Assembly: GCF_004402235.1 (NCBI RefSeq)
Contig: NZ_SOFS01000012.1
Span: 1-64,000 of the forward strand
Direction of reading: 5' to 3'
From: Cryobacterium glucosi
Lineage (GTDB): Bacteria > Actinomycetota > Actinomycetes > Actinomycetales > Microbacteriaceae
DNA: 64,000 bases
The notes under the pieces were generated by a model, which was given only the letters and a program-made list of their open reading frames with translations, ran no database searches and had not been told where the DNA came from. How positions within the stretch are numbered: position 1 is the first letter of the stretch; each line of letters begins with the position of its first letter. A program made the position numbers and the translations under genes. Shown in pieces: positions 27,522 through 48,310 of the stretch.

Positions 27522-29525
27522 TCAGCCGCCGCCGACGTGGGTGCCCGGACGGCGGAGCGGGTCGGGTTCGACCTCGCGCATGATCTCCCGCACGACGGGG
27601 GCGGTGTCGCCCTGGCCGAGCAGGAGGTAGCGCATCAGATGGAAGAGCGGGTTCCCCTCCGACCATTCGAAGTAGACGTGCGGGCGTACCCCGGAGGCAT
27701 CCCGCAGGGCGAGCAGGATCGCAGCGATGGCGTTCGGCGCCGCCGGGCTCTGCGCGCGCAGCACCCGGTAGCCTTCGATCTCAACTCCCCGGACGTGCAC
27801 GATCTTGCTGAAGCCGGAGGGGTCGATGACCTCGATCTCGAGGAAGAGCACGTCCGCGGTTCCGGGAACCGGATTCATCCCACGCTGGTCGGCCTCCTTC
27901 GCCGCGTACTCGGCGCGGTCGCCGCTCTGGGGCTTGTTCGCGATGATGTTCAGGGCGCCGTCATAGACGAGGGAATCGGCGACGAACTGCCGGGCCATCC
28001 CGTCGAATTCGACGCTGTCCACCCGGAGCTCGGTCGTCCGTGTCACGCGTGAGATCAGGGACACGGCGATGATCGCCGCGATGAAGAACACTGAAATCGT
28101 GATCCCGTCCGGTTTCTCGACGATGTTCGCGCCGAGGGCGTAGAGGAGCGCGAGCGACAGGACACTGAAGCCGATGCTCGCGCGGCGTTGCCTGCGGCGG
28201 ACGGCAGAGATGGTCACGGCGACGGCGCCGGACACCATCATGGCGAGGATCCCGGTCGCGTACGCGCCGGCCTGCGCGTTCACATCCGCCCGGAAACCGA
28301 TCGTGATCAGCACACTCACCCCGGTGTACACGAGTACGACCGGGCGGATGGCGCGGCTCCAGTCCGGCGCCATCCCGTACGACGGCAGATACCGCGGCAC
28401 GATATTGATCAGTCCGGCCATCGCGGACGCACCCGCGAACCAGAGGATCAGGATGCTGCTCACGTCATAGACGGTCCCGAAGACCTCGCCGACGCGCTCG
28501 TGGGCGAGGAAGGCGAGCGCGCGCCCGCTCGCCGCGCCGCCCGCCTCGAACTCGGCCGGTGGGATGAGCACGGTCGTCACGAAGCTGCTCGAGAGCAGGT
28601 AGACGCTCATGATGAGGGCCGCGGTCGTGAGGAGCCTGCGGGTGTTGCGGATCCGCGAGGCGAGTCGTTCCTCGGGGCTCCTGCCGTCCGCGGCGACGAG
28701 CGGCATCATGCTGACCCCGGTCTCGAAACCCGAGAGACCGAGGACGAGGAGCGGGAACGCGATCACGGCGGGCCCGAGGATATCGCCGAAACCGCTTCCC
28801 CGTGCGGTGAGTGCGTCCATCCAGTTCGCGATCACCCCGGGTTCGGTGAAGGCGTCGTGGAGTCCGACGCCGATCACGACTCCATTGAGCAGCAGATACA
28901 CCGCGACGAGGGGAATGGCGACGGAGACGGCCTCGCTGAAACCGAGCAGGAAGACTCCGCCGAGGATGAGCAGCAGCACGACCGTGATCGGCACGGCCTG
29001 GCCCGCGAGGAAGCTCGGCGCAAACGGGTTCTCAAGGATGTGCACCGTCGCATCCGCCGAGGACAGCGTGATCGTGATGATCCAGCTGGTCGCGACGAAG
29101 CCGAGCAGGATGAGCACGAATATCTTGCCGCGCCAGAACGGCAGCAGCCGCTCGAGCATCGCGACGGACCCTTGCCCGTGCGGGCTCTCCTTCGCGACGC
29201 GGCGATACATCGGCAGCATGCCGAGGAGGGTGAGCGCGACGATGAGCAGGGTCGCAACGGGTGAGAGCGCGCCGGCGGCGAGCGCTGCGATACCGGGCAG
29301 GTAGGAGAGGGTCGAGAAGTAGTCGACGCCGGTGAGGCACATCACCTGCCACCAGGGGTGGGTGGATGCCGTCCCCTCTGCGCTCTCGAGACCCACCGGT
29401 TGCACCCGGTTGGCCAGGAGCCACCGGCCCAGGGGCCCATATGCTGCCTTCGTGCGGATCGGACTCGGAACGCTCGCGGGGATCTCGGGACGAACTGCAC
29501 GGCCCGGAGTCTGGTCCATGGTCAC
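27522..29525 (-). CDS. APC-superfamily permease with large C-terminal soluble domain
   Basis: 667 residues. Residues about 55-500 contain twelve transmembrane helices of the amino acid-polyamine-cation permease fold ([42 protein letters not shown]). The last ~165 residues are soluble and contain [18 protein letters not shown] and [15 protein letters not shown]. It is the last gene of the CO dehydrogenase operon: its ATG overlaps the XdhC stop by 4 bp. Substrate unknown; the fused domain may sense a ligand. Confidence 0.85.
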
Positions 29526-30697
29526 ACGAGCTTTCGGGCGTCATCCTCGTCGCGCACGTCGACGATGTCGTGGGCGGCCAGGTCGTGGTGGATCGGTGTC
29601 CGGCGGTCGCCGAGCGGTTCACCGGTGCCACCCCACATTCCGGAGATGACCTCGGCCATGATCGAGACCGCGGTCTCCTCCGGCGTGCGGGCGCCGAGAT
29701 CGAGGCCGATCGGGCTGTGCAGCCGCGCCAGTGCGACCTCGGGCACGGCTGCCGCGCGCAGCCGGTCCAGGCGGTCGTCGTGGGTGCGCAGGGAACCCAT
29801 GGCGCCGACATAGGCGAGGTTGTCGTCGGAGAGGGCCAGCTCGAGGAGAGGGACGTCGAACTTCGGATCGTGGGTGAGCACGCAGACGACGGTGCGCGCG
29901 TCGAGGAGGCCGGCGGCATTCTGCTCGGCGAAGTAGCGGTGCGGCCAGGCCACGACGACCTCGTCGGCTCCGGGGAACCGTGCAGGAGTCGCGAACACGG
30001 CGCGGGCATCGCACACGGTGACCCGGTACCCGAGGAAGTCGGCCAGCCGGGTCAGGGCCGCGGCGAAGTCGACAGCGCCGAACACGAGCATCCGTGGCCG
30101 CGGGGCGAAGCTCGTGACGAAGACGCGTAGTTCAGCGCCGTCGCGTTCTCCGTCCGGCCCGTAGCCGATCGTCGAGGTGCGTCCCGCCGCCAGGAGGCCG
30201 CGGGCATCGTCGCCCACGACGTGGGTGAGCCGTTCGGAACCGAGGTCTCCGGTCACCCCGTCGCCGCGCACGATGAGGTGACGGCCGAGGATGCGGGGGT
30301 CGGGGTGCTCGATGACGGTCACGATACCGACCGGAACGGACGTCGCGAGGTCGCGCAGGACTGTGTCGAGCTCCGCGAAGGTCTCGCGGGAGACCGGTTC
30401 GACGAAGACGTCGAGGATGCCGCCGCAGGTCAGGCCGACCGCGAAGGCGTCGTCGTCGCTGATGCCGTAGCGCACGAGGGCCGGCCGTCCGGTGCGGATC
30501 ACCTCCTGCGCGAGTTCGTAGACGGCGCCCTCGACGCAGCCTCCCGATACCGAACCGACGACGGCGCCGTCGCTCGTGACGAGCATCGATGCTCCTGCGG
30601 GCCGGGGCGCGGAGTGGAACGTGCGTACGACCGTGGCGAGCGCCGCCGTCCGCCCGCGTTCCCAGGCGGGAACCAGTTCTTCGATGACGTCACGCAT
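29522..30697 (-). CDS. XdhC/CoxF-like molybdenum enzyme maturation factor
   Basis: 391 residues. The first ~110 residues are the XdhC-CoxI domain ([15 protein letters not shown] near residues 48-62), the rest is the NAD-like Rossmann XdhC_C domain ([20 protein letters not shown] and [17 protein letters not shown]). XdhC proteins bind the molybdenum cofactor, keep it sulfurated and hand it to the apo-enzyme. The gene is 9 bp downstream of coxG and its stop overlaps the permease start. A second XdhC in the operon carries a YHS domain. Confidence 0.9.
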
Positions 30698-30706
30698 TGC
30701 GGAGTC

Positions 30707-31483
30707 TCACGGTCGGCGCCCCTGGCGGATGTCTGCGGCCGAGCGGGCTGCACCGTGCCGGCCGAGCCGGTAGCCGACGAAGCCGACGACGGCGAGCAGG
30801 CCGAGAAGCGTGGCCGGGTTGCTGAGGCGCTGCATGATCATCGCCCTGGCGAAGCTGAAGGCGTCGAGGCTCGATCCGGCGGCCGGAGGCGGCGGAGTCC
30901 TGGGAACCGGCCGGGCGGGAACATCCGCCGGGTGCGCGATGCCGATCGGTGCCGTCGCGCCCGGCTCGGCGTCCACGGGCACGGTGTTCGCAGGCACGGT
31001 GTTCGCAGGCCCGGTGTCCGCCGGCGCGGGGGCCTCGCTCAGCATCGCCTGGAGGTTCTCGGCGAAGAGCGCCATCATCTGGTCGGTGACACTGCCGATG
31101 ATGCTCTTGCCCATCACGGCGACCTTCCCGGAGAGGTCGACGTCGGCGTTCACGGTGCCGTGGGTCGTCCCGTCCGCCTCGGTGAGCACGAGCGTCGCCG
31201 TGCCCTGCGCGGTGCCCTGGCCGCGCGCCTCCTGGGCGCGCCCCTCGAAGACCGCCCGGTGGGCGTCTGCATCCCGCTCGATCACGTTCATCATTCCTTT
31301 GTACTGCATTGCCACAGGTCCGAGCTTCACCTTCATGCCGACCTGATAGGCGTCGTCGGAGAGACGGTTCAGGATCTGCGCTCCCGGTACGCAACCGGCG
31401 ACACGTTCGAAGTCCATCAGGGTCGCCCAGACCTCCTCGATCGGCGCGGTGACGGAAAAGGTGCTGTCAAGCTGCATGGTCAT
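30707..31483 (-). CDS. coxG: CoxG: SRPBCC-domain membrane-anchored protein
   Basis: 258 residues. Residues 1-145 are an SRPBCC/CoxG lipid-pocket domain (FSVTAPIEEVWATLMDFERVAGCVPGAQ). A Pro/Ala-rich linker (about 150-215) contains repeated TVPANTVPANTVPV. A single transmembrane helix near the C-terminus (NPATLLGLLAVVGFVGYRLG) follows. CoxG anchors CO dehydrogenase to the membrane for electron transfer to the respiratory chain. Its start overlaps the end of coxE by 17 bp. Confidence 0.88.
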   Translation of the reverse strand: MTMQLDSTFSVTAPIEEVWATLMDFERVAGCVPGAQILNRLSDDAYQVGMKVKLGPVAMQYKGMMNVIERDADAHRAVFEGRAQEARGQGTAQGTATLVLTEADGTTHGTVNADVDLSGKVAVMGKSIIGSVTDQMMALFAENLQAMLSEAPAPADTGPANTVPANTVPVDAEPGATAPIGIAHPADVPARPVPRTPPPPAAGSSLDAFSFARAMIMQRLSNPATLLGLLAVVGFVGYRLGRHGAARSAADIRQGRRP

Positions 31484-32789
31484 GTCCTTTGGTCGTCGGG
31501 TGGGGTCGAGTACGGGGATCGGTGCTGGATGCGGTGCCGGGACGAGTGCGGGGGTCGAGCCGTTCCGCGCGGATCAGGTCGGCGAGTTCGCCGAGCGCCG
31601 CGTAACTGTGGCCGCTCACGATGGCGTCGATGTAGGGCAGGGCGGCGTTCATCCCTCCGACGAGCGGCTGGAATCCGGGAGCGACCGTACGCGGGTTGAC
31701 CCAGACGATCCGGTACGCGAGGCGGCGCAGACGGGCCATCTGGTCGGCAACGAAAGCGGGGTCGTCGAGGGCCCAACCGTCGGAGAGCACCACGATCACA
31801 GCGCCCCTGGCCAGTCCGCGCCGACCGTGGTCGTCGATGAACCGGCGGATGCTGTCGCCGAGCCGGGTGCCGCCGGCCCAGTCCGAGGAGCTCGCCGCGG
31901 CGTTCGCGAGCGCGGCGTCCGCATCCCGGACGGCGAGTTGGCGGGTCAGCCGGGTCAGCCCGGTCGAGAAGACGAAGGCCTCCGCGTGCGCGCCCGCAAC
32001 GGCGCCCTGGAGCAGGGTGAGGAACACCCGGGTGTACGGTTCCATCGACGCCGACACATCGCAGAGCAGGACGAGCCTGCGCGGTTGTTCCCTGCGGCGG
32101 GAGGAGACCAGAAGGATCGGCTCCTCGCCGGTGCGGTGTGCGGCCCGGACGGTGCGCCTCAGGTCGAGCCGGGCACCCTCCGCCCGGGTCGGCCGAACCC
32201 GCCTGCTGCGCCGAAGCGGGGTCGAGAGCGAGATCCGGCGCACGAGGTTCCGAACCTGCTCTGTCTCCTCAGCGCTCAGGAGCGAAAACGAGGTCTCGTG
32301 CAGGCGGCGTTCGAGCGAGGCGAGCATCAGGATCGTCTCGCGTTCGACGGCGCCCGGATCTGAGGGCCCTGCTGCGAGAGCAGGCGTCGGAGCCCGGGTC
32401 TCTGGTCCTTCGCGCGGTTCCTGCCGTCTTGCGGCGAGGTCGTCGTGTGGCGCCGGGCGGGTCCTGGCCTGCGAGCCGATGGCCGGCGGCGCGTTCGGGT
32501 CACCGCGCTGGTCCGCCGGGTCGAGCAGGCCGTCGAAGACGGCAGAGAAGACCGCGTCGAACACCGGCAACTGGTCTCTCGACGAGAGGAGCACGATGCG
32601 GCACGTCCAATAGAGTGCCGAGCGATGGGTCGGCGGCACCACCTGGACCGCGTCAGCGAGCCGGGCAGCCCCGTCGACCGAAACCGGCAGGCCCGCGCGG
32701 CGGAGCGCGGTGACGAACCCCGCGGCGAATGCGGCCGGTTCAACCCGCGGGGCGGCATCCGCCGGTGCGCGCTCGGTGATCTCTGCCAT
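31467..32789 (-). CDS. coxE: CoxE: VWA-domain protein of CO dehydrogenase maturation
   Basis: 440 residues. The C-terminal part is a VWA domain with MIDAS motif CDVSASM and later GGTRLGDSIRRFI and VVLSDGW. The N-terminal half is variable, with long Ala/Pro- and Arg-rich segments. CoxE works with the CoxD ATPase in inserting the Cu-S part of the Mo-Cu active site. One base separates it from coxD. Confidence 0.88.
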   Translation of the reverse strand: MAEITERAPADAAPRVEPAAFAAGFVTALRRAGLPVSVDGAARLADAVQVVPPTHRSALYWTCRIVLLSSRDQLPVFDAVFSAVFDGLLDPADQRGDPNAPPAIGSQARTRPAPHDDLAARRQEPREGPETRAPTPALAAGPSDPGAVERETILMLASLERRLHETSFSLLSAEETEQVRNLVRRISLSTPLRRSRRVRPTRAEGARLDLRRTVRAAHRTGEEPILLVSSRRREQPRRLVLLCDVSASMEPYTRVFLTLLQGAVAGAHAEAFVFSTGLTRLTRQLAVRDADAALANAAASSSDWAGGTRLGDSIRRFIDDHGRRGLARGAVIVVLSDGWALDDPAFVADQMARLRRLAYRIVWVNPRTVAPGFQPLVGGMNAALPYIDAIVSGHSYAALGELADLIRAERLDPRTRPGTASSTDPRTRPHPTTKGHDHAA

Positions 32790-32790
32790 G

Positions 32791-33729
32791 TCAGCTCCCG
32801 GCCATCCAGTCGGCCCCGCGCACGAGCGCGAGATCGAGGTCGTCCCTGTTCTTGATCAGGGAACCCCAGGTCTGGGCGACGTACTGCGGATCAAGACGGT
32901 CGGCCCCGAGAACGGCGAGCGCAGCCGCCCAGTCGATGACCTCGGCGATGCCGGGTGGTTTGACGAGGTCGAGGGAGCGCAACCGGGTGATCGCGGTCGC
33001 GGCGTCGAGGGCGAGGCGTTCGGTACTGCCGGGCACCCGGCGGCGCACGATCTCGGCGATCCGTTCCGGGCTCGGGTAGTCGATCCAGTGGTACAGACAC
33101 CGCCGGGTGAGGGCGTCGTGCAGGTCGCGGGTGCGGTTCGAAGTCAGGATCACGATCGGCGGCACCGCGGCCCTGATCGTGCCGAGCTCGGGGATCGTCA
33201 CGGCGGCCTCGGCGAGGAGTTCGAGGGTGAAGGCTTCGAACTCGGCGTCCGCACGATCGATCTCGTCGAGCAGCAGCACGGCGGGCCGGGGACCGGGGTG
33301 TTCGATGGCCTGCAGGAGGGGGCGTCGCAGCAGGTACTCCGGCCCGAACAGCGCATCCTCGTCGATCCCTGATCCGCTGGCCTCCGCGAGCCGGATCGCG
33401 AGGAGCTGGCGCGGGTAGTTCCACTCGTAGAGGGCCTCGCCCGCGTCGATGCCCTCGTAACACTGGAGCCGGAACAGGGGCGTGTCGAGAGCCCTCGCGA
33501 GCGCCTTGGCCGCCTCGGTCTTACCGACACCCGGTTCGCCCTCGAGCAGGATCGGCTGCGGCAGGCGTACCGCGAGGAAGAGGGCCGTCGCGAGGCCTTC
33601 GTCTGCGAGGTAGTCCTCCGCGGCGAGCGCAGCCTGCAGTGCAGGCACGTCAGGGACCAGTGCCCGGACAGCGGACGTCGCCCCGCCCCTGGCCGGGCTC
33701 GAGGGGATTCCCTCAACGCTCGGTGCCAT
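32791..33729 (-). CDS. coxD: CoxD: MoxR-type AAA+ ATPase
   Basis: 312 residues. Walker A is GEPGVGKTEAAKAL, Walker B is LLLDEIDRAD; sensor and arginine-finger regions (SNRTRDLHDALTRRCLYH) are present. MoxR ATPases with VWA partners (CoxE here) activate metalloenzymes; in aerobic CO dehydrogenase the pair completes the [CuSMoO2] centre. ATG 33729 is 2 bases after the stop of the XdhC-YHS gene. Confidence 0.92.
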   Translation of the reverse strand: MAPSVEGIPSSPARGGATSAVRALVPDVPALQAALAAEDYLADEGLATALFLAVRLPQPILLEGEPGVGKTEAAKALARALDTPLFRLQCYEGIDAGEALYEWNYPRQLLAIRLAEASGSGIDEDALFGPEYLLRRPLLQAIEHPGPRPAVLLLDEIDRADAEFEAFTLELLAEAAVTIPELGTIRAAVPPIVILTSNRTRDLHDALTRRCLYHWIDYPSPERIAEIVRRRVPGSTERLALDAATAITRLRSLDLVKPPGIAEVIDWAAALAVLGADRLDPQYVAQTWGSLIKNRDDLDLALVRGADWMAGS

Positions 33730-33731
33730 GG

Positions 33732-34736
33732 TCAGTGCTCCACGGTCGAGGTGTGGACGTGGGTCTTCGTGAGGGCGAAGCGCTCTGGATCTGCGACGAA
33801 GGCCGCGCGACAGCCGGGGGAGCAGAAGTAGTGTGTTGCCCCCGCGTGCTCGTAGTGCAGGCTCGTGGGCAGGGCGGCAACCGTCATCCCGCAGACCGGA
33901 TCGATGGCGCTCGGAGGCTCCAACGTCGCGTCGGCCTCCCCCGGGGACACCGGGAGCGGCAGGGCCCCCGCGGCCCCGGCGAGCCCCGCCGACCGGAGCC
34001 TGAAACGTTCGGCGACGAGTTGCGCGAAGACCGACACCGCGATCTCGCCGGGGGTCCGGCCGCCGAGGTCGAGTCCCGCAGGGTTGAACACCCTGGCGCG
34101 TTGCTCGGCGTCGACGTTGAGGGAGGCGAGCACTGCGGCGCCCCGGGTGGGGCTCGCGACGAGCGCGACATAGGGCACCCCCGCGCGGAGGGCCGCCTCG
34201 AGGGCGGGTTCCTCTTCCCGGCCATGGGACGCGACGATGAGTGCGGCGTCGTCCCGGCGCGGTGACGTGGCCGTGCCGGGGGCGCCGATCGTCTCGCTGA
34301 GCTCGACGTCGAAGCCGAGGTCGACCCCGATCGTGGCGAGGGCCCGCGCGACCGGTGTCGCGCCGACGACGATGACCCGCGGTGCCGGATGCCACGGCTC
34401 GAGGAAGATCTCGACAGCGCCCCCGCTGAGGCACGGGTTCCGCACCTCGACAGCGCCGTCCTCCGCCACGCCGGACGGGTCTCCTGGCACGACCCGGAGC
34501 AGGAGGGGCTCGCGTGCGGCGAGTTGCCTGAGCCCGTAGTACCGAACGGATGCCTCGACGCAGGCACCGCCGACGAACCCGTCGATCCGGCCGGCGGCAT
34601 CCACAACGGCGGTGTCGCCGGCGTGTGCGCTCGTCGGACGCTGGGCGCGTACGACGGTGGCGCGGACGAACGGCTCGCGGCGTTCGGTGAGTTCGTGCGC
34701 CCTGCGGGCGAGGGCGTCCGGAATCGGTGGTGGCAT
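33732..34736 (-). CDS. XdhC-like maturation factor fused to a YHS metal-binding domain
   Basis: 334 residues. Residues about 1-280 form an XdhC-like protein (FVGGACVEASVRYY; IVVGATPVARALATIGVDLGFDVEL; GLDLGGRTPGEIAVSVFAQL). The C-terminal ~50 residues form a YHS domain: DPVCGMTVA, then THYFCSPGCRAAFVADPERF. YHS domains bind metal through CxxM and CxxxC-type residues and occur in copper and mercury proteins. In a form I CO dehydrogenase operon, copper delivery to the Mo-S-Cu centre is a likely role, but this is inference. ATG 34736 or GTG 34742 are possible starts; the gene is 11 bp after coxL. Confidence 0.85.
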   Translation of the reverse strand: MPPPIPDALARRAHELTERREPFVRATVVRAQRPTSAHAGDTAVVDAAGRIDGFVGGACVEASVRYYGLRQLAAREPLLLRVVPGDPSGVAEDGAVEVRNPCLSGGAVEIFLEPWHPAPRVIVVGATPVARALATIGVDLGFDVELSETIGAPGTATSPRRDDAALIVASHGREEEPALEAALRAGVPYVALVASPTRGAAVLASLNVDAEQRARVFNPAGLDLGGRTPGEIAVSVFAQLVAERFRLRSAGLAGAAGALPLPVSPGEADATLEPPSAIDPVCGMTVAALPTSLHYEHAGATHYFCSPGCRAAFVADPERFALTKTHVHTSTVEH

Positions 34737-34747
34737 CGGCACGGCAA

Positions 34748-37137
<2,390 letters not shown>

Positions 37138-37141
<4 letters not shown>

Positions 37142-37743
37142 GCGGTCACCTCTTCCGGTTCCGTCTGCGAGGCCGGGATCGCCCTGGCCGCTTCCGCGGC
37201 GGCGGCGCCCGGTTCCGTGGTCGTGCCCGCCGAGTCGTCGAGCGCTGCGGGGTCGCCACCTGCGGCATCCGCTTCGGTCATGCCCGCCGGGTGGTCTGCT
37301 GCCCAGTGCACCGAACGGACGATCGTCGCGTAGCCGGTGCAGCGGCAGATCTGCCCCGAGATCGCCCGGCGGATCTCGGTGTCGTCTGGGTGAGGGTTCA
37401 CGTCGAGGAGAGCGCGGGCGGTGAGCATCATGCCGGGGGTGCAGAACCCGCACTGCAGCCCGTGTTCCTCCATGAAGCCCTGCTGCACGGGGTCGAGGGT
37501 GCCACCGGTGGCGAGGCCTTCGACCGTCGTGATCGCATGACCATCGGCCATCGCCGCGAGCACGGTGCACGACTTCACCGGCTGCCCGTCCATGAGCACG
37601 ACGCAGGTACCGCAGTTGGAGGTGTCGCAGCCCCAGTGGGTTCCGGTGAGCCTCAACACGTCGCGGATGTAGTGCACGAGCAGGACGCGCGGTTCGACCT
37701 CGTTGGTCACGTCGGTCCCGTTCACCGTCATGGTGATCTGCAT
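37138..37743 (-). CDS. coxS: CO dehydrogenase small (iron-sulfur) subunit CoxS
   Basis: 201 residues. The N-terminal 2Fe-2S domain is GCDTSNCGTC with the fourth Cys in KSC; the C-terminal helical domain has QCGFCTPGM and ICRCTGY, giving the second 2Fe-2S cluster. It carries electrons from the Mo centre to the FAD subunit. The C-terminal ~50 residues (Ala/Glu-rich) are longer than in most CoxS proteins. Stop overlaps the coxL start by 4 bp. Confidence 0.95.
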
Positions 37744-37747
37744 GGAT

Positions 37748-38656
37748 TCAGCCTTCCTGCGGTGTGGTGGGGTGCCCGGTCGCGCCGGCGAACTCCGCGA
37801 CACGATCTGTCGCGCGGCGCAGGACGCGGCGGGTGAGCTCGTCGGCGAGGTGCCGCTTGTAGTCGACCGGTCCGCGCTGGTCGGCGACCGGGTCGGCCGC
37901 GAGTGCTGCGAGGCGGCCGGCCTCGATGAAGAGCTGCTCGCCGGGGCGTTCACCGCGGAGCAGCTCCGTGACCGCGCCGACGGTGCCGTCGAGCCCCACG
38001 GCGGTCAGGCCGACGGATGCCTCCGCGATCGTGCCGTCCTCCGCGAACGAGAGCGCGGCTCCTGCCGCGGCGACGGCCCAGTCGCCGACCCTGCGCTCGA
38101 CCTTTTCGTATGCGCTTCCTGAGCGCGGCCGGATCGGGATGCGCACTTCGCAGAGCAGCTCATCCGCGGCGACCGCCGTCTCGTAGGCTCCGCGATGGAA
38201 CTCGGTCATGGTCAGCATCCGCTCGCCGAGGGGACCGCGAACGATCGCCTCGGCACCGAGCACATCGCAGACGGTCGCGAGGTCCTCCGCAGGATCGGCC
38301 TGGCAGAGCGAACCTCCGATCGTGCCGCGATTGCGGACGATCGGGTCTGCGATCACTCGCTCGGCGTCGCCGACGATCGGGAAGAGCGCGGCGATCTCAG
38401 CTGACTCGAGGAGGGTCGTGTGCCGGGTGAGGGCGCCGATCCGCAACCGGTCTCCGTCCCGCAGCACGAAGTCGAGTTCGAACAGGTCGTTGATGTCGAT
38501 GAGCCATTCCGGCCTGGCCAGCCGGAGCTTCATCATCGGCAACAGGCTGTGACCGCCCGCGATGATGCGGGCCTCGGGGCCGTACCGGGAGAGCAGTGCG
38601 ATGGCGTCGTCGACCGTGTCGGCGCGGGCGTATTCGAATGGTGCCGGAATTTGCAC
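37748..38656 (-). CDS. coxM: CO dehydrogenase medium (FAD) subunit CoxM
   Basis: 302 residues of the PCMH-type FAD-binding family: VQIPAPFEYARADTVDDAI at the start, IIAGGHSLLPMMKLRLA (pyrophosphate loop), NRGTIGGSLCQADPAEDL (second FAD contact). It passes electrons from CoxS to quinones via FAD. GTG 38656 is preferred: GGGGAGG lies 5-11 bases upstream and family members start with this strand. ATG 38677 and 38773 are alternatives, but they add weakly conserved residues. Confidence 0.95.
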   Translation of the reverse strand: MQIPAPFEYARADTVDDAIALLSRYGPEARIIAGGHSLLPMMKLRLARPEWLIDINDLFELDFVLRDGDRLRIGALTRHTTLLESAEIAALFPIVGDAERVIADPIVRNRGTIGGSLCQADPAEDLATVCDVLGAEAIVRGPLGERMLTMTEFHRGAYETAVAADELLCEVRIPIRPRSGSAYEKVERRVGDWAVAAAGAALSFAEDGTIAEASVGLTAVGLDGTVGAVTELLRGERPGEQLFIEAGRLAALAADPVADQRGPVDYKRHLADELTRRVLRRATDRVAEFAGATGHPTTPQEG

Positions 38657-38710
38657 GGACCCTCCCCATTGAGGCATGCCCTGCGGAATGGGGGGCACTG
38701 GATGCCACAC

Positions 38711-38739
38711 ATAGTGGCCCCGGGCCCCAGCGAAGTCAA
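38711..38739 (-). promoter_or_regulatory. Candidate promoter of the cox operon
   Basis: Read on the minus strand, TTGACT (38739-38734) and CACTAT (38716-38711) are separated by 17 bp. Transcription would start about 48 bases before the coxM GTG at 38656. The -10 box deviates from consensus, so confidence is moderate. Confidence 0.35.
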
Positions 38740-38996
38740 TGACCCGCCGATCGGGCATTTCCTTTCGGTTCATGGCAAAGACCTAGACAACGCACAGGCT
38801 TCGGATTAATCTGCCAGCGTCGGCACCCGTGTGTGTGCCGGCCTCCCCGGGAGACGCTGTGCATCACACGTTCTCTCCGCGGTGCTTGACAACATGCAAC
38901 CGTCATCTGCTCTCGGCGTACCTGCGCAGCGCTTGTCTTCCGGTGCTTCTGTCCCAGCGGTCGTGGCGAGAGCCGATCGTGAAGAGAACAGAGATC

Positions 38997-40361: not shown

Positions 40362-41075
40362 CTACGGATCGGGGGTGAAGCGGTAGCCCATTCCGGCCTC
40401 CGTGAGCAGATAGCGCGGATGCGCCGGGTCGGGTTCGAGCTTCTTGCGCAGCTGGGCGAGGTAGAGGCGCAGGTAGCCGGAGTCCGTCGTGTGGTGCGGA
40501 CCCCAGATGTCCGTCAGCAGCGACTGCCGGGAGACGAGCTTCCCCGGGTTGCGCAGCAGGAACTCGAGGATGCGCCACTCGGTGGGGGTGAGCCGGATGG
40601 CCTCGGGTTTTCCGGGAGCGCCCCCGGAACCCGTGCCCGTGCGCACGACGCTCCGTGCCGAGAGGTCGACGGCGATCGTGCCGAGCATGATCACCGGTTC
40701 GGCACCGGAGTCGACCGGGCCGAGCCTCCGGGTGAGCGCGCGGATCCTGGCGAGCAGTTCGTCGATGGAGAACGGCTTCGTGACGTAGTCGTCCGCTCCC
40801 GCATCGAGAGCGTCGACCTTGTCGGCGGCGCCGCTGCGCCCTGAGACGACGAGGATCGGCACCTGGGTCCAGCCGCGCAGGCCGGCGATGACCTCGATCC
40901 CGTCGAGGTGCGGCATTCCGAGGTCGAGCATCACGAGGTCGGGATGCTCATGCGCTGCAGCGGCGAGGGCCTCAGCGCCGTCCCTGGCGGTCACGACGTC
41001 GTACCCGCGCGCGCCGAGGGTGACCCGCAGCGCACGCAGGATCTGCGGGTCGTCGTCTGCGATCAGGATCTTCAC
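40362..41075 (-). CDS. kdpE: KdpE response regulator
   Basis: 237 residues: receiver domain (IADDDPQ at the N-terminus, phosphorylated Asp in LVMLDLGMP, Lys in DYVTKPF) and an OmpR-type winged helix (TPTEWRILEFLLRNPGKLVSRQ). It activates the kdp operon under potassium limitation. The GTG start at 41075 directly follows the kdpD stop at 41076. Confidence 0.95.
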   Translation of the reverse strand: MKILIADDDPQILRALRVTLGARGYDVVTARDGAEALAAAAHEHPDLVMLDLGMPHLDGIEVIAGLRGWTQVPILVVSGRSGAADKVDALDAGADDYVTKPFSIDELLARIRALTRRLGPVDSGAEPVIMLGTIAVDLSARSVVRTGTGSGGAPGKPEAIRLTPTEWRILEFLLRNPGKLVSRQSLLTDIWGPHHTTDSGYLRLYLAQLRKKLEPDPAHPRYLLTEAGMGYRFTPDP

Positions 41076-43658
41076 TCAGGTCTCCTCATCAGTGCCAGTG
41101 CCAGTGCCAGTGCCCGTGCCAGTGCCCGTGCCCGTGGCTGCGGCCGTGCCGGCTGTCTGGCCCGCCGGCGCTGCGGGGTCGAATGCGGGCAGGGCGATGA
41201 CCATCGTCAGCCCGCCGCCCGGGGTGTCCTCCGCCTCGAGCCGACCGCCCATGCCCTCGGTGAATCCCTTCGCGAGTGCGAGGCCGAGGCCGAGGCCGGT
41301 CAGGTTGTCGGTGTCGCCGAGGCGCTGGAACGGAAGGAAGACCTCATCGCGCCGGTCGGCGGGAATGCCGGGCCCGCGGTCCATGATCCGCAGTTCGACG
41401 ACGCCGCCGAATTCGCTCGCCGAGACGAGCACGCGCCCGCCCGTCGGCGAGAAGCGGATGCCGTTGGCCAGCACGTTCACGACGACCCGCTGCAGGAGTC
41501 CGGCATCGGCGAGCATCGGCGGCAGCCCGGGAGGGAGCTCGAGTTCAACCGTGTCCGGCCCGACGCCGAGCTCATCGAGTGCGGGGAGCACGACGTCCGC
41601 AGCGTCGACGGGGCCCAGGGAGACCGCGAGGGCACCGGCCTGCACCCGGCTGACGTCGAGGAGGTTCGTGACGAGGCTGGCCAGCGACTCGAGACTCTCT
41701 TCGGCCGTCTCGAAGAGCTCCTCCCTGTCGGCGGGCGACAGCGTGAGTTCGGCCGAGCGCAACCCGCTGATAGCGGCTGTCGCAGCGGAGAGCGGCCGCC
41801 GCAGGTCGTGACCGACGGCGGCGAGAAGGGCGCTGCGCATCCGGTCGGCCTCGGCGAGCGGTCCGATCGCACTGGCCGTCTCTGCGAGGTCGCTGTGTTC
41901 GAGCGCGGCGTCGAGCTGGGTCGCGATCACGCCGAGCAGTCGTCGCTCGGACGCTGCGAGGTCGCGTCCGGAGAGCTCGAGGGTGCCCCGGGTGCCGACG
42001 GGGACCGTTGCGAGGGGGGTGTCCGGGCCGGCCTGGGCGGGCGAGCCGTCGGAGTACAACAACGTCCCGCCCGCGAACAGGCGCACCCCGGTGAGGTTGA
42101 AGGCCTCGCGGGTCCTGGCGACGAGCGCGGGAACGGCGTCCTCGCCGCGGAGCACGCTGCCGGCAACGGTGGCGAGGAGTTCTGACTCACCCGCGGCGCG
42201 CTGGGCGCTGCGGCTTCGTCGGGCGGCGAGGTCGACGACGTAGCTGACGACGCCCGCGTTGGCCAGGTACAGGACGAGCGCGAGGGCGTGTGCGGGTTCG
42301 GCGATCGTGACGGTGTAGAGCGGGTTCACGAAGAAGTAGTCGAGGGTGAGCCCGGAGAGCAGCGCGGCGAACAGGGCAGGCCAGAGTCCGCCGACGAGGG
42401 CGACGACGATGACGAGGAGTTGATAGCTGAGCACCTCGCTCGTGATCGATTCCTCGCTGTGGGTCGCCACGAGGAGCGCGGTGAGCAGCGGACCGCCGAC
42501 GACGGCGAGGCCGAGGCCGGCCAGCCGTCTGCGGAGGCTCAGTGCACCGCCGATCCGGGGGAGGCGCATCCGCTCGCCCGCGGCGGAGTGCGTGACGACG
42601 TGCACGTCGATGTCTCCGGACTCCCTGACGACCGTCGTGCCGATTCCCGGCCCGCTGAAGGCCGCCTTGAGCCGGGTACGCCTGCTCACACCGATCACGA
42701 GCTGGGTCGCATTCGAGGCCCTGGCGAATTCGACGAGGGCGGTCGGGACGTCGTCGCCGACGAGCTGGTGGTAACTGCCGCCGAGTTTCTCAACGAGGGC
42801 CCGCTGGGCCGCGAGCGCGCCGGGGTGTGCGGAGCGGAGTCCGTCCTGGCTGATCACGTGCACGGCGAGGAGCTCGCCCCCGGCTGCGCGCCCGGCGATC
42901 CGTGCCCCGCGGCGCAGCAGCGTCTCGCCCTCCGGCCCGCCGGTGAGCGCGACGACGACACGTTCGCGGGCTTCCCACTTGCTGTCGATGCCGTGTTCGG
43001 CCCGGTAGTTCTTGAGTGCCGTGTCGACCTCGTCGGCGAGCCAGAGTAAAGCGAGCTCGCGCAGGGCGGTGAGATTGCCGAGTCGGAAGTAATTCGACAG
43101 GGCGGCGTCGATCCTGGCGGCGGGATAGACGTGGCCCTCGGCGAGCCGGTCGCGCAGGGACTGCGGGGCGAGATCGATCACCTCGACCTGATCCGCGGCA
43201 CGCAGCACGCTGTCCGGGAGGGTTTCGCGCTGGGGGACACCCGTGATCTGCTGCACGACGTCGTTGAGCGACTCGATGTGCTGGATGTTGACCGTCGAGA
43301 TGACGTCGATGCCCGCGTCGAGGATGGACTGGACGTCCTGCCACCGTTTGTCGTGGGCGAGTCCGGGGGCGTTGGTGTGGGCGAGCTCGTCGACGAGTGC
43401 GATCGCGGGTGCGCGATCGAGGACAGCATCCAGGTCGAGGTCGGTGAGTTCGATCCCGCGGTGCCGCCTGACGAGGCGCGGCACGACCTCGAGTCCTTCG
43501 AGCATCGCGGCCGTCGCAGGGCGGTCGTGGGTTTCCACGACCGCGACGACGACGTCCTTGCCCTCTGCGTGCAGCCGCCTGCCCTCTTCGAGCATGGCGT
43601 AGGTCTTGCCGACGCCCGGTGCGGCACCGAGCAGCACCCGCAGTCGACCGCGTTTCAT
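41076..43658 (-). CDS. kdpD: KdpD sensor kinase
   Basis: 860 residues. Domains: KdpD N-terminal ATP-binding domain (Walker A GAAPGVGKTYAML, residues 10-22), a USP-like domain, four transmembrane helices (about 375-480), a GAF-like domain and a histidine kinase (GHDLRRPLSAA with the phosphorylated His; catalytic NGIRFSPTGG and GPGIPADRRDEVF). It senses K+ limitation and turgor. The C-terminus is a Gly-Thr repeat tail. It is followed at once by kdpE. Confidence 0.95.
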   Translation of the reverse strand: MKRGRLRVLLGAAPGVGKTYAMLEEGRRLHAEGKDVVVAVVETHDRPATAAMLEGLEVVPRLVRRHRGIELTDLDLDAVLDRAPAIALVDELAHTNAPGLAHDKRWQDVQSILDAGIDVISTVNIQHIESLNDVVQQITGVPQRETLPDSVLRAADQVEVIDLAPQSLRDRLAEGHVYPAARIDAALSNYFRLGNLTALRELALLWLADEVDTALKNYRAEHGIDSKWEARERVVVALTGGPEGETLLRRGARIAGRAAGGELLAVHVISQDGLRSAHPGALAAQRALVEKLGGSYHQLVGDDVPTALVEFARASNATQLVIGVSRRTRLKAAFSGPGIGTTVVRESGDIDVHVVTHSAAGERMRLPRIGGALSLRRRLAGLGLAVVGGPLLTALLVATHSEESITSEVLSYQLLVIVVALVGGLWPALFAALLSGLTLDYFFVNPLYTVTIAEPAHALALVLYLANAGVVSYVVDLAARRSRSAQRAAGESELLATVAGSVLRGEDAVPALVARTREAFNLTGVRLFAGGTLLYSDGSPAQAGPDTPLATVPVGTRGTLELSGRDLAASERRLLGVIATQLDAALEHSDLAETASAIGPLAEADRMRSALLAAVGHDLRRPLSAATAAISGLRSAELTLSPADREELFETAEESLESLASLVTNLLDVSRVQAGALAVSLGPVDAADVVLPALDELGVGPDTVELELPPGLPPMLADAGLLQRVVVNVLANGIRFSPTGGRVLVSASEFGGVVELRIMDRGPGIPADRRDEVFLPFQRLGDTDNLTGLGLGLALAKGFTEGMGGRLEAEDTPGGGLTMVIALPAFDPAAPAGQTAGTAAATGTGTGTGTGTGTGTDEET
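41091..41137 (-). repeat. 6-bp tandem repeat at the end of kdpD
   Basis: Near-perfect repeats of GGCACT/GGCACG-type hexamers encode a run of about eight Gly-Thr dipeptides directly before the KdpD C-terminal DEET. Copy number could vary without frameshift. Confidence 0.8.
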
Positions 43659-43668
43659 GTCACGCCTT

Positions 43669-44283
43669 TCAGCCCTGGCCGGGCAGCGCCGCGAGGGCGA
43701 GGTTCAGTTGGAGCACGTTGACGGTGGGTTCGCCGAGGAAACCAAGGTCCCGTCCCTGAATCCTAGACTCGACCAGGGCGCTGACCGTCGCGACCGGAAG
43801 GCCGCGGGCCGCCGAGACCCTGTTCACCTGGATCCGGGCGTACTCCGCGCTGATCTGGGGATCAAGACCCGACGCGGATGCCGTGAGCGCGTCAGCGGGG
43901 ATCTGGGCGGCGGTCACGCCGTCGGATCCCTCGATTGCGGACGTCCGGTCGGCGATCGCGGCGATCAGGTCCGCGTTCTCCGGACCGAGGTTACTGCCGC
44001 CGGAGGCCGCCGCATCGTAGCCGTCGCCCGCTGCGGATGGCCGGGACTGGAACCACTCCGGAAGGGCCGCTCCCTGGGCATCCGTGAATGACTGGCCGAT
44101 CAGCGAGGAGCCGACCGCTCCAGAACCCCCCTGGATGAGGGAACCGTTGGCCTGGTTCGGCAGGGCGACCTGCCCGAAGGCCATGATCGCGAGGGGATAG
44201 GCGACACCGAGGATGACGGTGAAGACGAGCATGGCGCGAAGGGCGACGCCGTACTGGCGGGCCGAGCTGCGAGGGGAACTCAT
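43669..44283 (-). CDS. kdpC: KdpC subunit of the high-affinity potassium ATPase
   Basis: 204 residues with an N-terminal membrane helix (ALRAMLVFTVILGVAYPLAI) and a periplasmic domain containing LIGQSFTDAQGAALPEWFQSRPS, SNLGPENADL and the conserved ARGLPVATVSALVE. KdpC stabilises the KdpA-KdpB complex. The kdpB gene ends 51 bp upstream; kdpD follows 10 bp after. Confidence 0.95.
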   Translation of the reverse strand: MSSPRSSARQYGVALRAMLVFTVILGVAYPLAIMAFGQVALPNQANGSLIQGGSGAVGSSLIGQSFTDAQGAALPEWFQSRPSAAGDGYDAAASGGSNLGPENADLIAAIADRTSAIEGSDGVTAAQIPADALTASASGLDPQISAEYARIQVNRVSAARGLPVATVSALVESRIQGRDLGFLGEPTVNVLQLNLALAALPGQG

Positions 44284-44334
44284 GGTGACGTTGTCCGTTT
44301 CCGTGGAAGTGAGGTTGGGGAGAGGTCCGGCGGG

Positions 44335-46545
44335 TCAGAAACCGGGGAGCAATGCGACGAAGAGGTCGACGAGCTTGATCCCGAGGAACGGTGCGATCAC
44401 ACCACCCAGGCCGTAGATCAGCAGGTTGCGGCTGAGCACGCTCGCGGCGGCGGCCGGACGGTAGGTGACTCCGCGAAGCGCGAGCGGGATCAGTACAACG
44501 ATGATGATCGCGTTGAAGATGATGGCGGACAGGATCGCCGAGGCTGGCGAGTGCAGCTGCATCACGTTCAGCACGGCGAGGCCGGGGAAGACTCCTGCGA
44601 ACATGGCCGGGATGATCGCGAAGTACTTGGCGATGTCGTTGGCGATCGAGAAGGTGGTGAGGGCGCCGCGGGTGATCAGAAGCTGTTTGCCGATTCGGAC
44701 GATATCGATGAGCTTCGTCGGGTCAGAGTCGAGGTCGACCATATTGCCGGCCTCCTTCGCGGCGCTGGTGCCGGTGTTCATCGCGACCCCGACGTCGGCC
44801 TGGGCGAGTGCCGGTGCGTCGTTCGTTCCGTCGCCCGTCATGGCGACGAGATTGCCGCCCTCCTGCTCACGCCGGATGAGGGCGAGCTTGTCCTCTGGGG
44901 TGGCCTCGGCGAGGAAGTCGTCGACGCCGGCTTCCGCTGCGATCGTCTTGGCGGTCAGCGGGTTGTCGCCGGTCACCATGATCGTGCGGATGCCCATGCT
45001 GCGCAGTTCGGCGAATCGTTCGGCGATTCCCTCCTTGACGATGTCCTTGAGGTACACCACTCCCAGGATCCGCCGCGCCCCGGGTCCAAGGTCCGCCGAG
45101 TTGTCCGCCGTGTTGCCCGCAGCGCTGCCCTCGGCCACGACGAGGGGGGTGCCGCCCAGTTCTGAGATCCGTTCGACGGTCGCGTTCAGGTCGTCGAGGA
45201 TCGTCGACTCGACGTTCGTGGTTTCGCTCACCCAGGCGAGCACGGCGGAGCCGGCGCCCTTGCGCACGAAGGAGCCGTCGGGCAGGTCGATCCCGCTCAT
45301 CCGGGTCTGCGCCGTGAAGGGCACCACGACGGCGTCGAGGATTCCCGGATTCCCGAACCCGGTTTCGATGGCGAGGTCGACGATCGATTTGCCCTCTGGG
45401 GTCGGGTCGCTCAGGGAGGACAGTGCTGCTGCGTTGATGAGTTCGCCTCTGTCGACCCCGGCGAGCGGGGTGAACTCCCGTGCCTGCCGGTTGCCGTAGG
45501 TGATCGTGCCGGTCTTGTCGAGGAGCAGGATCGTGACGTCGCCTGCCGCCTCGACTGCGCGTCCCGACATGGCCAGCACGTTGCGCTGCACGAGCCGGTC
45601 CATTCCTGCGATGCCGATCGCGGAGAGCAGGGCGCCGATCGTGGTCGGGATCAGGCAGACGAGCAGGGCGACGAGGACGGGCAGGCTCACGGCGGCGGCG
45701 GAGTATCCCGCGATGGGGTTGAGGGTGAGGGTGACGACGAGGAACACGATCGACAGGCTCGCGAGCAGGATGTTGAGCGCGAGCTCGTTCGGGGTCTTCT
45801 GCCGGGAGGCGCCCTCGACAAGGGCGATCATGCGGTCGACGAAGGTCTCGCCCGGCTTGCTCGTGATGCGGACGACGATCCGGTCGGAGAGCACCCGGGT
45901 GCCGCCGGTGACGGCGCTCCGGTCGCCGCCGGACTCACGAACGACGGGTGCGGATTCACCGGTGATCGCGGACTCGTCGATCGACGCGATGCCCCAGACG
46001 ATGTCGCCGTCTCCGGGGACGAGCTCCCCGGCGGTCACGATCACGGTATCGCCCAGTGTCAGGTCGGCGGAGGAGACGGCGGAGACGGTGGCCCGTTCGG
46101 CCGCGGCATCCGCTGCCTCGTCGTAGCCGGCCACGAGGTTGGCGATCGTGCTCGTTCGGGTCTGGCGGAGGCTGTCGGCCTGCGCCTTGCCGCGGCCCTC
46201 GGCGACGGCTTCCGCGAGGTTCGCGAAGATCACGGTGAGCCAGAGCCAGAATGCGATGCCGACGGTGAAACTCGCCGGTACGTCGCCGCCGCCCGAACGG
46301 GCCGGTCCGCCGAGGAAGGGTTCGACGATCGCGAGCAGCGTGGTGAGCGCGGCACCGACCTCGACGATGAACATGACGGGGTTCCGCCACATCAGCCGGG
46401 GGTCGAGCTTGCGCGCCGCCATCGGGAGTGCAGCGACGAGCTGGGCAAGGTTGATCGCGCTCGATGCGCGTTTCCGCGGATGTTCTCCAGCGGGCGCTCG
46501 GCCCTCGCCCCGTGGAGAGGTGGATGCTTCGGTGACTGTCGACAT
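44335..46545 (-). CDS. kdpB: KdpB, catalytic subunit of the potassium P-type ATPase
   Basis: 736 residues of the class IA P-type ATPase family. Diagnostic motifs: [10 protein letters not shown] (actuator), [10 protein letters not shown] (phosphorylated Asp), [10 protein letters not shown] (metal-binding hinge). KdpB hydrolyses ATP to drive K+ through KdpA. The N-terminus is about 30 residues longer than usual (Ser/Thr/Arg-rich). The short frame between kdpA and kdpB ends 3 bases before its ATG. Confidence 0.95.
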
Positions 46546-46547
46546 GA

Positions 46548-46634
46548 TTACTGCTGCCCTTCCGTCGGGGAGTCCGGCGTGAGTGGTGACAAGGAGAGGA
46601 ACGGGGGAGCCTGGGTGCCGGAGGCGGTGGTCAT
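46548..46634 (-). CDS. Possible 28-residue peptide between kdpA and kdpB
   Basis: ATG 46634 to TAA 46548 gives [20 protein letters not shown]..., Pro/Ser-rich with no membrane segment. It starts 3 bases after the kdpA stop and ends 3 bases before the kdpB ATG, so it could only be translated as a coupling peptide; it could also be non-coding spacer. Confidence 0.25.
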
Positions 46635-46636
46635 GG

Positions 46637-48310
46637 CTACTGCAGCCCTTCCGCGAGCGGACCCAGCGCGAGCACCGGGAAGTACGTGAGCGCCGTGATG
46701 ATGACCGTCACGCCGACGAGCAGCCCGACGAACTGCATGCGGTGGGTCGGCAGGGTGCCGCGCGTCGCAGGAACGGTGTCCTGGGCGGAGAGGGCTCCGG
46801 CGAGGGCGAGCACGAGGACGATCGGCAGGAAACGGCCGAGGAGCATGGCAACGCCCAGCGCCGTGTTGAACCACGGCGTGTTGGCCGTCAGTCCCGCAAA
46901 GGCGGAACCATTGTTGTTGGCCGCGGAGGTGAAGGCGTAGAGCACTTCGGAGAGACCGTGCAGCCCGGGGTTCCAGATGGAGGTGCCCTCGACATCCGCT
47001 CGCACGGCGGGGATCGCGAAACTCAGGGCCGTTCCGGCGAGGACGAGGGTCGGGGTCACCAGGATGTAGAGGCTGGCGATCTTGATCTCGCGCGGGCCGA
47101 TCTTCTTGCCGAGGTATTCGGGAGTGCGGCCGACGAGCAGGCCGGCGATGAAGACCGTGATCACGGCGAGGATGAGCATTCCGTAGAGCCCGGACCCCGT
47201 GCCGCCGGGGGCGACCTCGCCGAGCATCATGTTGAGCATCGGCATCAGGCCCCCGAGGGCCGTGAAGGAGTCGTGCATCGAGTTCACGGCACCGGTCGAG
47301 GTGAGGGTCGACGCCGTCCCGAAGATGGCGGACCCGATAATGCCGAAGCGCTGTTCCTTGCCCTCCATGGCGCCACCCGCTGCGAGTGGGGCCGTTCCGG
47401 CACCGCCGAGCTCGAAGAGGGTGAGCGCGGTGAGGGAGACCACGAAGATGGCGGCCATCGCTCCGAGAATGGCATAGCCCTGTCGTTTGTCGCCGACGAT
47501 CGTGCCGAAGGTGCGGGGCAGGCTGAACGGGATCGCGAGCATGAGAACGATCTGGAACATGCTCGTCCACGCGGTCGGGTTTTCGAACGGATGCGCCGAG
47601 TTCGCGTTGAAGAATCCGCCGCCGTTCGTGCCGAACATCTTGATCGCCTCCTGCGAGGCCACCGGCCCGCCCGGTATGGACTGGGTGGCGCCCGTGATCG
47701 TGGTGACGTCCGTGAAGCCGGTGAGGTTCTGGATGACGCCGCCGGCGAGGAGGACGAGCGCGGCGAGAATCGCCACAGGGAGCAGCAGGCGCAGTACCCC
47801 GCGGGTCAGGTCGACCCAGAAATTGCCGATCGTGCCGGTCCGGCGCTGAGCGAAACCGCGCACCAGGGCGATCGCAACGGCGATGCCGACCGCGGCGGAT
47901 ACGAAGTTCTGCACGGCGAGGCCGAGCATCTGCACAGAATAGCCCATGGTCACGTCGGGTGAATAGGACTGCCAGTTCGTGTTGGTCACGAATGAGACGG
48001 CCGTGTTGAACGACAGGCCCGACGGGATGGCCGGAAAGCCCAGGGAATAGGGCAGTACCGCTTGGGCTCGCTGAATGACGTAGACGAAAAGCACGCCGAT
48101 GAGGGAAAAAGCGAGCACGCTGCGCAGGTAGGACTGCCAGGTCTGCTGCGACCGGGGATTGACCCCGACCAGGCGATAGAAGCCGCGCTCGACCCGGTTG
48201 TCACGCGACGACTGGTAGAACGCCGCCATGTAGTCGCCCAGGGGGCGATAGATGAGGGCGAGGACAAGCGCAAGGGTGAGCGCCTGGAGAACGGCGAACC
48301 AGAGGTCCAT
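46637..48310 (-). CDS. kdpA: KdpA, K+-translocating channel subunit
   Basis: 557 residues with ten or more transmembrane helices and the KdpA pore signatures [31 protein letters not shown], and NNNGSAFAG. It forms the potassium pathway. Its ATG (48308-48310) overlaps the kdpF stop as TGATG. Confidence 0.95.

Follow-up and report, generated by a model that had tools for sequence, protein, structure and literature searches.

CoxF with a C-terminal YHS domain in form I CO dehydrogenase operons, and a candidate copper site in its usual form

The window, by which we mean the whole stretch of 64,000 nucleotides of Cryobacterium glucosi DNA that was analysed, carries a cox operon. All of its genes lie on the - strand, in the order coxM, coxS, coxL, coxF with a YHS domain, coxD, coxE, coxG and a plain XdhC gene (Table 1). 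The coxF gene starts 11 bases from the coxL stop and ends just ahead of coxD. Just upstream of the operon is a Kdp potassium system (40362-48310, - strand) with kdpA, a P-type ATPase, kdpC, the sensor KdpD and a response regulator. Downstream of the plain XdhC gene, and in the same place in Cryobacterium algoricola (L032), is a gene for a 667-residue membrane-like protein (27522-29525, - strand), for which no Pfam or NCBIfam match was found at E 0.001.

Table 1. Genes of the cox operon in the window, with the domains and presumed ligands of its CoxF
Feature	Position	Strand	Basis or remark
coxM, FAD subunit	37748..38773	-	FAD_binding_5 and CO_deh_flav_C
coxS, [2Fe-2S] subunit	37138..37953	-	Fer2_2, Fer2; open frame, true start further in
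coxL, form I, motif AYACSFR	34748..37141	-	TIGR02416, 1369.6 bits against a cut-off of 991.15
coxF, YHS-bearing form	33732..34736	-	334-residue protein: XdhC_CoxI, XdhC_C, flexible linker and YHS; groups with OM5 CoxF in the tree
XdhC_CoxI domain, residues 17-81, including C59 of the GGxC motif	34494..34688	-	Pfam
XdhC_C Rossmann domain, residues 121-240	34017..34376	-	Pfam; model matches XdhC structures 2we8, 3on5
Linker, residues 246-276, middle (257-271) predicted disordered, nearly free to change	33909..34001	-	Model and dN/dS
YHS domain, residues 278-321	33774..33905	-	Pfam; confident fold alone and in the whole model
D279, first presumed metal ligand	33900..33902	-	Asp in 91/92; analogy with D178 of M. 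phlei adenylyl cyclase (PMC4626032)
C282, presumed metal ligand	33891..33893	-	Cys in 92/92
C305, presumed metal ligand	33822..33824	-	Cys in 92/92
C309, presumed metal ligand	33810..33812	-	Cys in 92/92
coxD, AAA ATPase	32791..33729	-	AAA_5; MadB_ATPase model under its cut-off
coxE, von Willebrand A domain protein	31467..32789	-	VWA_CoxE
coxG	30707..31483	-	COXG
Second, plain XdhC without YHS	29522..30697	-	Pfam; outside the CoxF clade in the tree

The protein encoded between coxL and coxD matches three Pfam models: XdhC_CoxI (52.1 bits against a cut-off of 24.3), XdhC_C (80.5 against 29.7) and YHS (PF04945; 40.6 against a curated cut-off of 30.3, E 2.6e-10). Because these scores exceed the cut-offs, the YHS domain is no chance match. 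The XdhC-YHS fusion inside a cox operon that a preliminary description of this DNA had proposed is therefore real, with an open frame and all three domains, and the motifs DPVCGM and YFCSPGC are both present in the translation. The separate plain XdhC gene mentioned in that description is also there. A family search of the C. glucosi genome scored 7 candidates and gave one YHS match at E <= 0.001, that of CoxF itself. The protein falls below the NCBIfam equivalog models for XdhC in the strict sense, the factor that sulfurates Moco for xanthine dehydrogenase (TIGR02964, 19.7 against 161.6 bits; NF045664, 77.9 against 350), and its closest named record is from C. algoricola, with a best segment that is 87% identical. 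C59 is invariant in an alignment of 42 rows.

Structure prediction for the full-length protein gave a model (mean pLDDT 88.8) with two confident parts and a linker whose residues 257-271 fall below a pLDDT of 50. In a fold search the whole protein showed its XdhC body only, which matched 2we8, 2we7 and 3on5. Taken alone, YHS had a pLDDT of 87.5; its best Foldseek rows were weak (best E 0.18, none at E <= 0.001) and consisted of YHS-type pieces of diiron hydroxylases and L24e, and also a zinc-finger TRASH domain. In one pairwise comparison, with the C. algoricola locus, dN/dS was approximately 0.09 for the XdhC body, 0.70 for the linker and 0.15 for YHS; the low value in YHS as against the linker indicates that the domain is under purifying selection while the linker is nearly free. 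The linker is variable in length as well, running from 13 to 85 (median 20) between the body and DPVC in the YHS domains of form I loci.

We asked how the protein is related to the XdhC proteins of other cox clusters. A tree was built from XdhC bodies with YHS excluded, using 104 rows after random thinning, and 4 long or gappy rows, including CoxI of O. carboxidovorans OM5 and one archaeal YHS row, were dropped from the careful version. In the careful tree 73 rows form a CoxF clade (support 98/92) that contains both the window protein and the CoxF of OM5, and the plain XdhC of the window and the XdhC genes of form II loci fall outside it. A quick tree likewise grouped the window protein with OM5 CoxF, apart from plain XdhC/CoxI. 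The protein has the XdhC_CoxI and XdhC_C domains of CoxF, and its gene shares a form I cox operon with coxMSL, coxD and coxE. The window gene is thus an ortholog of CoxF, which the preliminary description had not recognised.

The cox cluster of OM5 also has both kinds of XdhC, which were described there as CoxF and CoxI (PMC2997495). Since that cluster holds two kinds, two XdhC genes per cox operon are ordinary, and YHS is the part that needs explanation. The plain XdhC/CoxI kind, as represented by the Rv0376c homologue of M. smegmatis (2we7, 2we8), shares with CoxF both XdhC domains and the fold, but it has a CGG motif where CoxF mostly has CxSxG, lies outside the CoxF clade and carries no YHS. 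OM5 CoxF itself (WP_013913733.1, plasmid pHCG3) shares with the window protein the XdhC_CoxI and XdhC_C body, the clade and the set of cox genes; at 280 residues, however, it ends after the XdhC body, with neither linker nor YHS.

It is from OM5 that the function of CoxF is known. A coxF mutant lost growth on CO (PMC4240915), and its CO dehydrogenase contained 0.043 mol/mol of copper against 1.47, 1.85 mol/mol of Mo against 1.73, and 1.40 mol/mol of cyanolysable sulfur against 1.53 (PMC4240915, Table 1). Cu(I) added to the mutant enzyme as isolated restored only 14% of activity, and the authors proposed that copper is supplied by CoxF, assigning sulfuration to CoxD (PMC4240915). Because the mutant enzyme keeps Mo and sulfur and is without copper, these values place CoxF at the copper step. 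The role in copper insertion suggested in the preliminary description fits these published genetics of the ortholog (PMC4240915). As the copper motif of OM5 CoxF, the same authors proposed MCPSHGTM (PMC4240915). We found that this motif sits on a Cys common to other XdhC proteins and is not common to other CoxF-type proteins: its His occurs in 0 of the 88 scorable CoxF-type sequences, a further 22 being not scorable. The word YHS is absent from PMC4240915.

To sample form I loci we relied on coxL genes scoring over the TIGR02416 cut-off, and each group takes its name from the genome at the centre of its search. The Actinomycetota sample held 58 coxL loci in 56 of 396 genomes, and the alphaproteobacterial class sample 12 coxL loci in 11 of 289; the figures were 41/201 for the Thermomicrobium phylum (Chloroflexota), 10/274 for the gammaproteobacterial sample and 3/121 for the phylum of a Nitrososphaerales archaeon (Thermoproteota). 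With the window itself and four others left out, 119 form I loci were read, among which 106 had a complete CoxF-type gene, 5 had a gene cut by the contig end and 8 showed none. YHS was present in 91 of the 106, "CoxF-type" meaning a score over 160 bits, a threshold that also admits YHS-less sister XdhC genes of some gammaproteobacterial clusters (L243, L245, L248), each of which lies beside a YHS-bearing CoxF and is separated from it by the tree. The share was 38/38 in Chloroflexota, 47/50 in Actinomycetota, 2/2 in Thermoproteota, 4/7 in Gammaproteobacteria and 0/9 in Alphaproteobacteria. The YHS-bearing protein is therefore the usual form of CoxF and no odd fusion, and the domain is dispensable in some lineages; neither point was part of the preliminary description.

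As a control we read 20 form II loci, all from Actinomycetota, and found YHS in 0 of the 16 that have an XdhC gene, and on this ground we rejected YHS as a form II feature or a general feature of XdhC. We also considered whether something else stands in for the domain where it is missing. No standalone YHS open frame of at least 60 residues replaces the fused one in any of the 119 loci. MHYT membrane proteins, relatives of CoxC/CoxH, occur in 11 of 12 alphaproteobacterial form I loci (L231-L242) and 3 of 9 gammaproteobacterial ones (L245, L248, L251), as well as in L083; they are missing from all actinobacterial and chloroflexotal form I loci examined. We rejected them as a simple swap for YHS, given their presence in L083 and in L245 and L248, which keep the domain. 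A form I coxL is present and YHS absent in Nonomuraea. The coxL loop varies in five of the loci read (SYRCSFR in three, AYRCSLR and AFRCSFR), and in a Caballeronia locus (L318) it reads AYRCSFM. The coxL of the Nitrososphaerales archaeon (L078, G551), which is over the TIGR02416 cut-off, has the loop TYRCSFR.

Counts of whole genomes agree with those of loci. Among 150 genomes of Microbacteriaceae, form I coxL and the YHS form occur together in 9 and are both missing from the other 141; single open frames through YHS were checked. Across Actinomycetota (n=396), among the matches listed, 51 genomes have both, 7 have the YHS form without form I, 5 have form I without the YHS form, and 333 have neither. 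Fisher values were 1.5e-50 and 1.2e-14, which owing to the relatedness of the genomes are no true probabilities. In 5 of the 7 genomes with YHS only (G162, G252, G273, G276, G509) the gene lies at a contig end with a piece of coxL beside it; in G309 an incomplete form I coxL is found on a different contig, and the seventh is G491. The genomes with form I only have complete genes in three cases (G299, G471, G527) and genes cut by a contig end in two (G166, G338). We did not count as the YHS form G370 (a 135-residue YHS piece, with no form I coxL over the cut-off) or G298 and G272 (partial XdhC matches), whereas G310, in which the model match stops before YHS, was counted from its locus. By loci and by genomes alike, YHS-bearing CoxF tracks form I coxL and not form II. 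This is the association that the preliminary description had anticipated, and fusions found mostly without form I CoxL, which it had named as the opposite outcome, did not occur.

A separate scan of genome contigs included the pattern AIDPVCGM, and YHS conservation in that set is therefore selected; because of this bias our counts rest on the loci chosen by coxL. In the scan, XdhC and YHS share one open frame in 51 of 52 full-length loci, L040 being frameshifted. A form I loop is near by in 44 of the 52 (including L078, with TYRCSFR), a piece of coxL without the loop in 6, and no coxL within the stretch read in 2 (L041, L071). The pattern-scan set also served to build the YHS and XdhC models of the reverse count, and a very degenerate YHS could escape them, though a degenerate copy in Deinococcus was still detected.

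Mapped on the tree, the presence of YHS requires 6 changes. If plain XdhC is taken as the outside, these changes are most simply explained by a single gain at the base of CoxF followed by five losses; the method does not infer the root, and the direction is accordingly an argument. One loss is that of an alphaproteobacterial clade of 11 rows that includes OM5 (support 100/98); three more concern one gammaproteobacterial pair and two closely related actinobacteria of one genus, which stand on separate branches; and the fifth is an actinobacterial locus, L188, where the tail of a YHS-less CoxF ends in GGGCCGHGSG. The YHS-bearing CoxF is thus probably the ancestral form. A CC motif occurs in the linker of two YHS-bearing CoxF proteins (TSCCSG and SSCCSE, loci L243 and L248); the L188 tail and these linker motifs are possible further metal-binding tails. 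A YHS-less XdhC gene that is sister to the CoxF clade lies beside a YHS-bearing CoxF in L243, L245, L248, L064 and L072, and we regard it as a third type of XdhC found in such clusters.

The conservation of single residues was scored in 92 YHS domains of form I loci, window included. Three Cys are kept throughout while the rest of the domain varies, and the preceding Asp is replaced by Asn in one; a Burkholderiales pair has Asn in place of Asp. Their spacing, D-x2-C-x22-C-x3-C, is that of D178, C181, C204 and C208 in the adenylyl cyclase of M. phlei. The YHS domain of that enzyme is likewise C-terminal behind a linker, with the same Asp and three Cys, but it is attached to a cyclase, serves as a copper switch and has a linker of 8 residues (PMC4626032). 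It is required for activation by micromolar Cu2+, and Zn, Fe, Cr, Co and Ni did not activate the enzyme; its ligands were presumed by analogy with L24e, and the YHS of diiron hydroxylase was metal-free in the crystal (PMC4626032). The nearest sequence relatives in a plasmid collection are YHS domains carried by heavy-metal P-type ATPases (45-62% identity over 42-58 residues among the matches listed), which differ in belonging to membrane pumps; copper binding is presumed there too (PMC4626032). By analogy with the cyclase, we infer that the window YHS binds a copper ion through the four residues listed in Table 1, though it could bind Zn or another metal instead.

We think it rather probable that YHS is a copper-holding module of CoxF, borne on a flexible linker by an XdhC body that docks on apo-CO dehydrogenase. 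The window CoxF would then be a maturation protein for the copper step of the Mo-Cu (form I) enzyme. YHS would take up a copper ion via D279, C282, C305 and C309, the XdhC body would bind the folded apo-CO dehydrogenase in the way that XdhC docks on the enzyme it serves, and the mobile linker would let YHS reach the substrate channel. The copper would next pass to the sulfur of Mo-SH and to the active-site Cys in the form I loop, CoxD and CoxE assisting, and the plain XdhC of the operon would be left handling sulfurated Moco. Lineages without YHS would have to load or hold copper by another route. YHS is no general requirement of the copper step, as OM5 CoxF, for which there is genetic proof, has none; because OM5 works without it, the domain would help to load, hold or gate copper and would not be the sole possible route.

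The same domain might act as a copper sensor: bound copper would activate the XdhC body and so confine the maturation of CO dehydrogenase to times when copper is present. The only biochemically studied C-terminal YHS that we found, in the M. phlei cyclase, is indeed a copper switch (PMC4626032), and a sensor would explain how CoxF functions without YHS in Alphaproteobacteria. We nevertheless consider this unlikely: CoxF is required for the copper step itself (PMC4240915), and a long, disordered and nearly neutral linker is more in keeping with a carrier on a tether than with allosteric switching, although a switch could also have such a linker. Nor do we expect, with a somewhat firmer doubt, that YHS binds zinc, another metal or none and is a structural or docking piece recognising form I CoxL or CoxD/CoxE. 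The folds nearest to it, though none reached E <= 0.001, would suit such a piece, as would the existence of degenerate and missing copies; the constancy of the three Cys in an otherwise variable domain speaks against it, as does the link of YHS to the only group of the enzyme family that carries copper and its absence from the form II control.

The preliminary description had instead suggested that one protein couples sulfuration with copper insertion. XdhC homologues do handle sulfurated Moco (PMC2997495), and much of the sulfur of the coxF mutant could not take up Cu(I), as its limited reactivation suggests (PMC4240915). However, the cyanolysable sulfur of the mutant is near normal and sulfuration is assigned to CoxD (PMC4240915), and the operon has a separate plain XdhC. 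An enzyme that keeps Mo and sulfur but lacks copper tells against the coupling, and we give a single combined step very little chance; a weaker coupling of the two is possible, because added Cu(I) restored so little activity (PMC4240915).

Bacteria act as a sink for CO of the atmosphere by means of aerobic CO dehydrogenase. CoxF as a family and YHS as a domain were both already known, and we found no paper joining YHS with XdhC, CoxL or CO dehydrogenase among open-licence PMC papers. We put forward tentatively, being slightly more doubtful than confident of the proposal as a whole, that the maturation of Mo-Cu CO dehydrogenase has its conserved site of copper loading in the C-terminal YHS of CoxF, that this domain was present in the CoxF ancestor and is tied to form I in bacteria and archaea, and that it was overlooked because the sole organism with a dissected maturation belongs to a lineage that lost YHS. 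If this is true, a YHS domain attached to an XdhC protein would mark Mo-Cu enzymes at the sequence level, and CoxF-YHS would be a copper chaperone of the cytosol with a new architecture. The published model of copper supply names CoxF but rests on a suspected motif that is absent from other CoxF proteins (PMC4240915), and a near-invariant domain with four presumed ligands in most sampled CoxF proteins offers a concrete candidate copper site to mutate, purify and titrate.

Nature also provides material for such work. OM5 CoxF and actinobacterial or chloroflexotal CoxF form natural pairs without and with YHS that are usable for exchange. On plasmid p380k of Deinococcus sp. AJ005 (L317) the YHS of CoxF is degenerate, with SPVDG replacing DPVCG and with FTCANC, beside a form I coxL, which makes this locus a natural test of whether the ligands matter. 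The locus also has an extra TIGR02466 gene.
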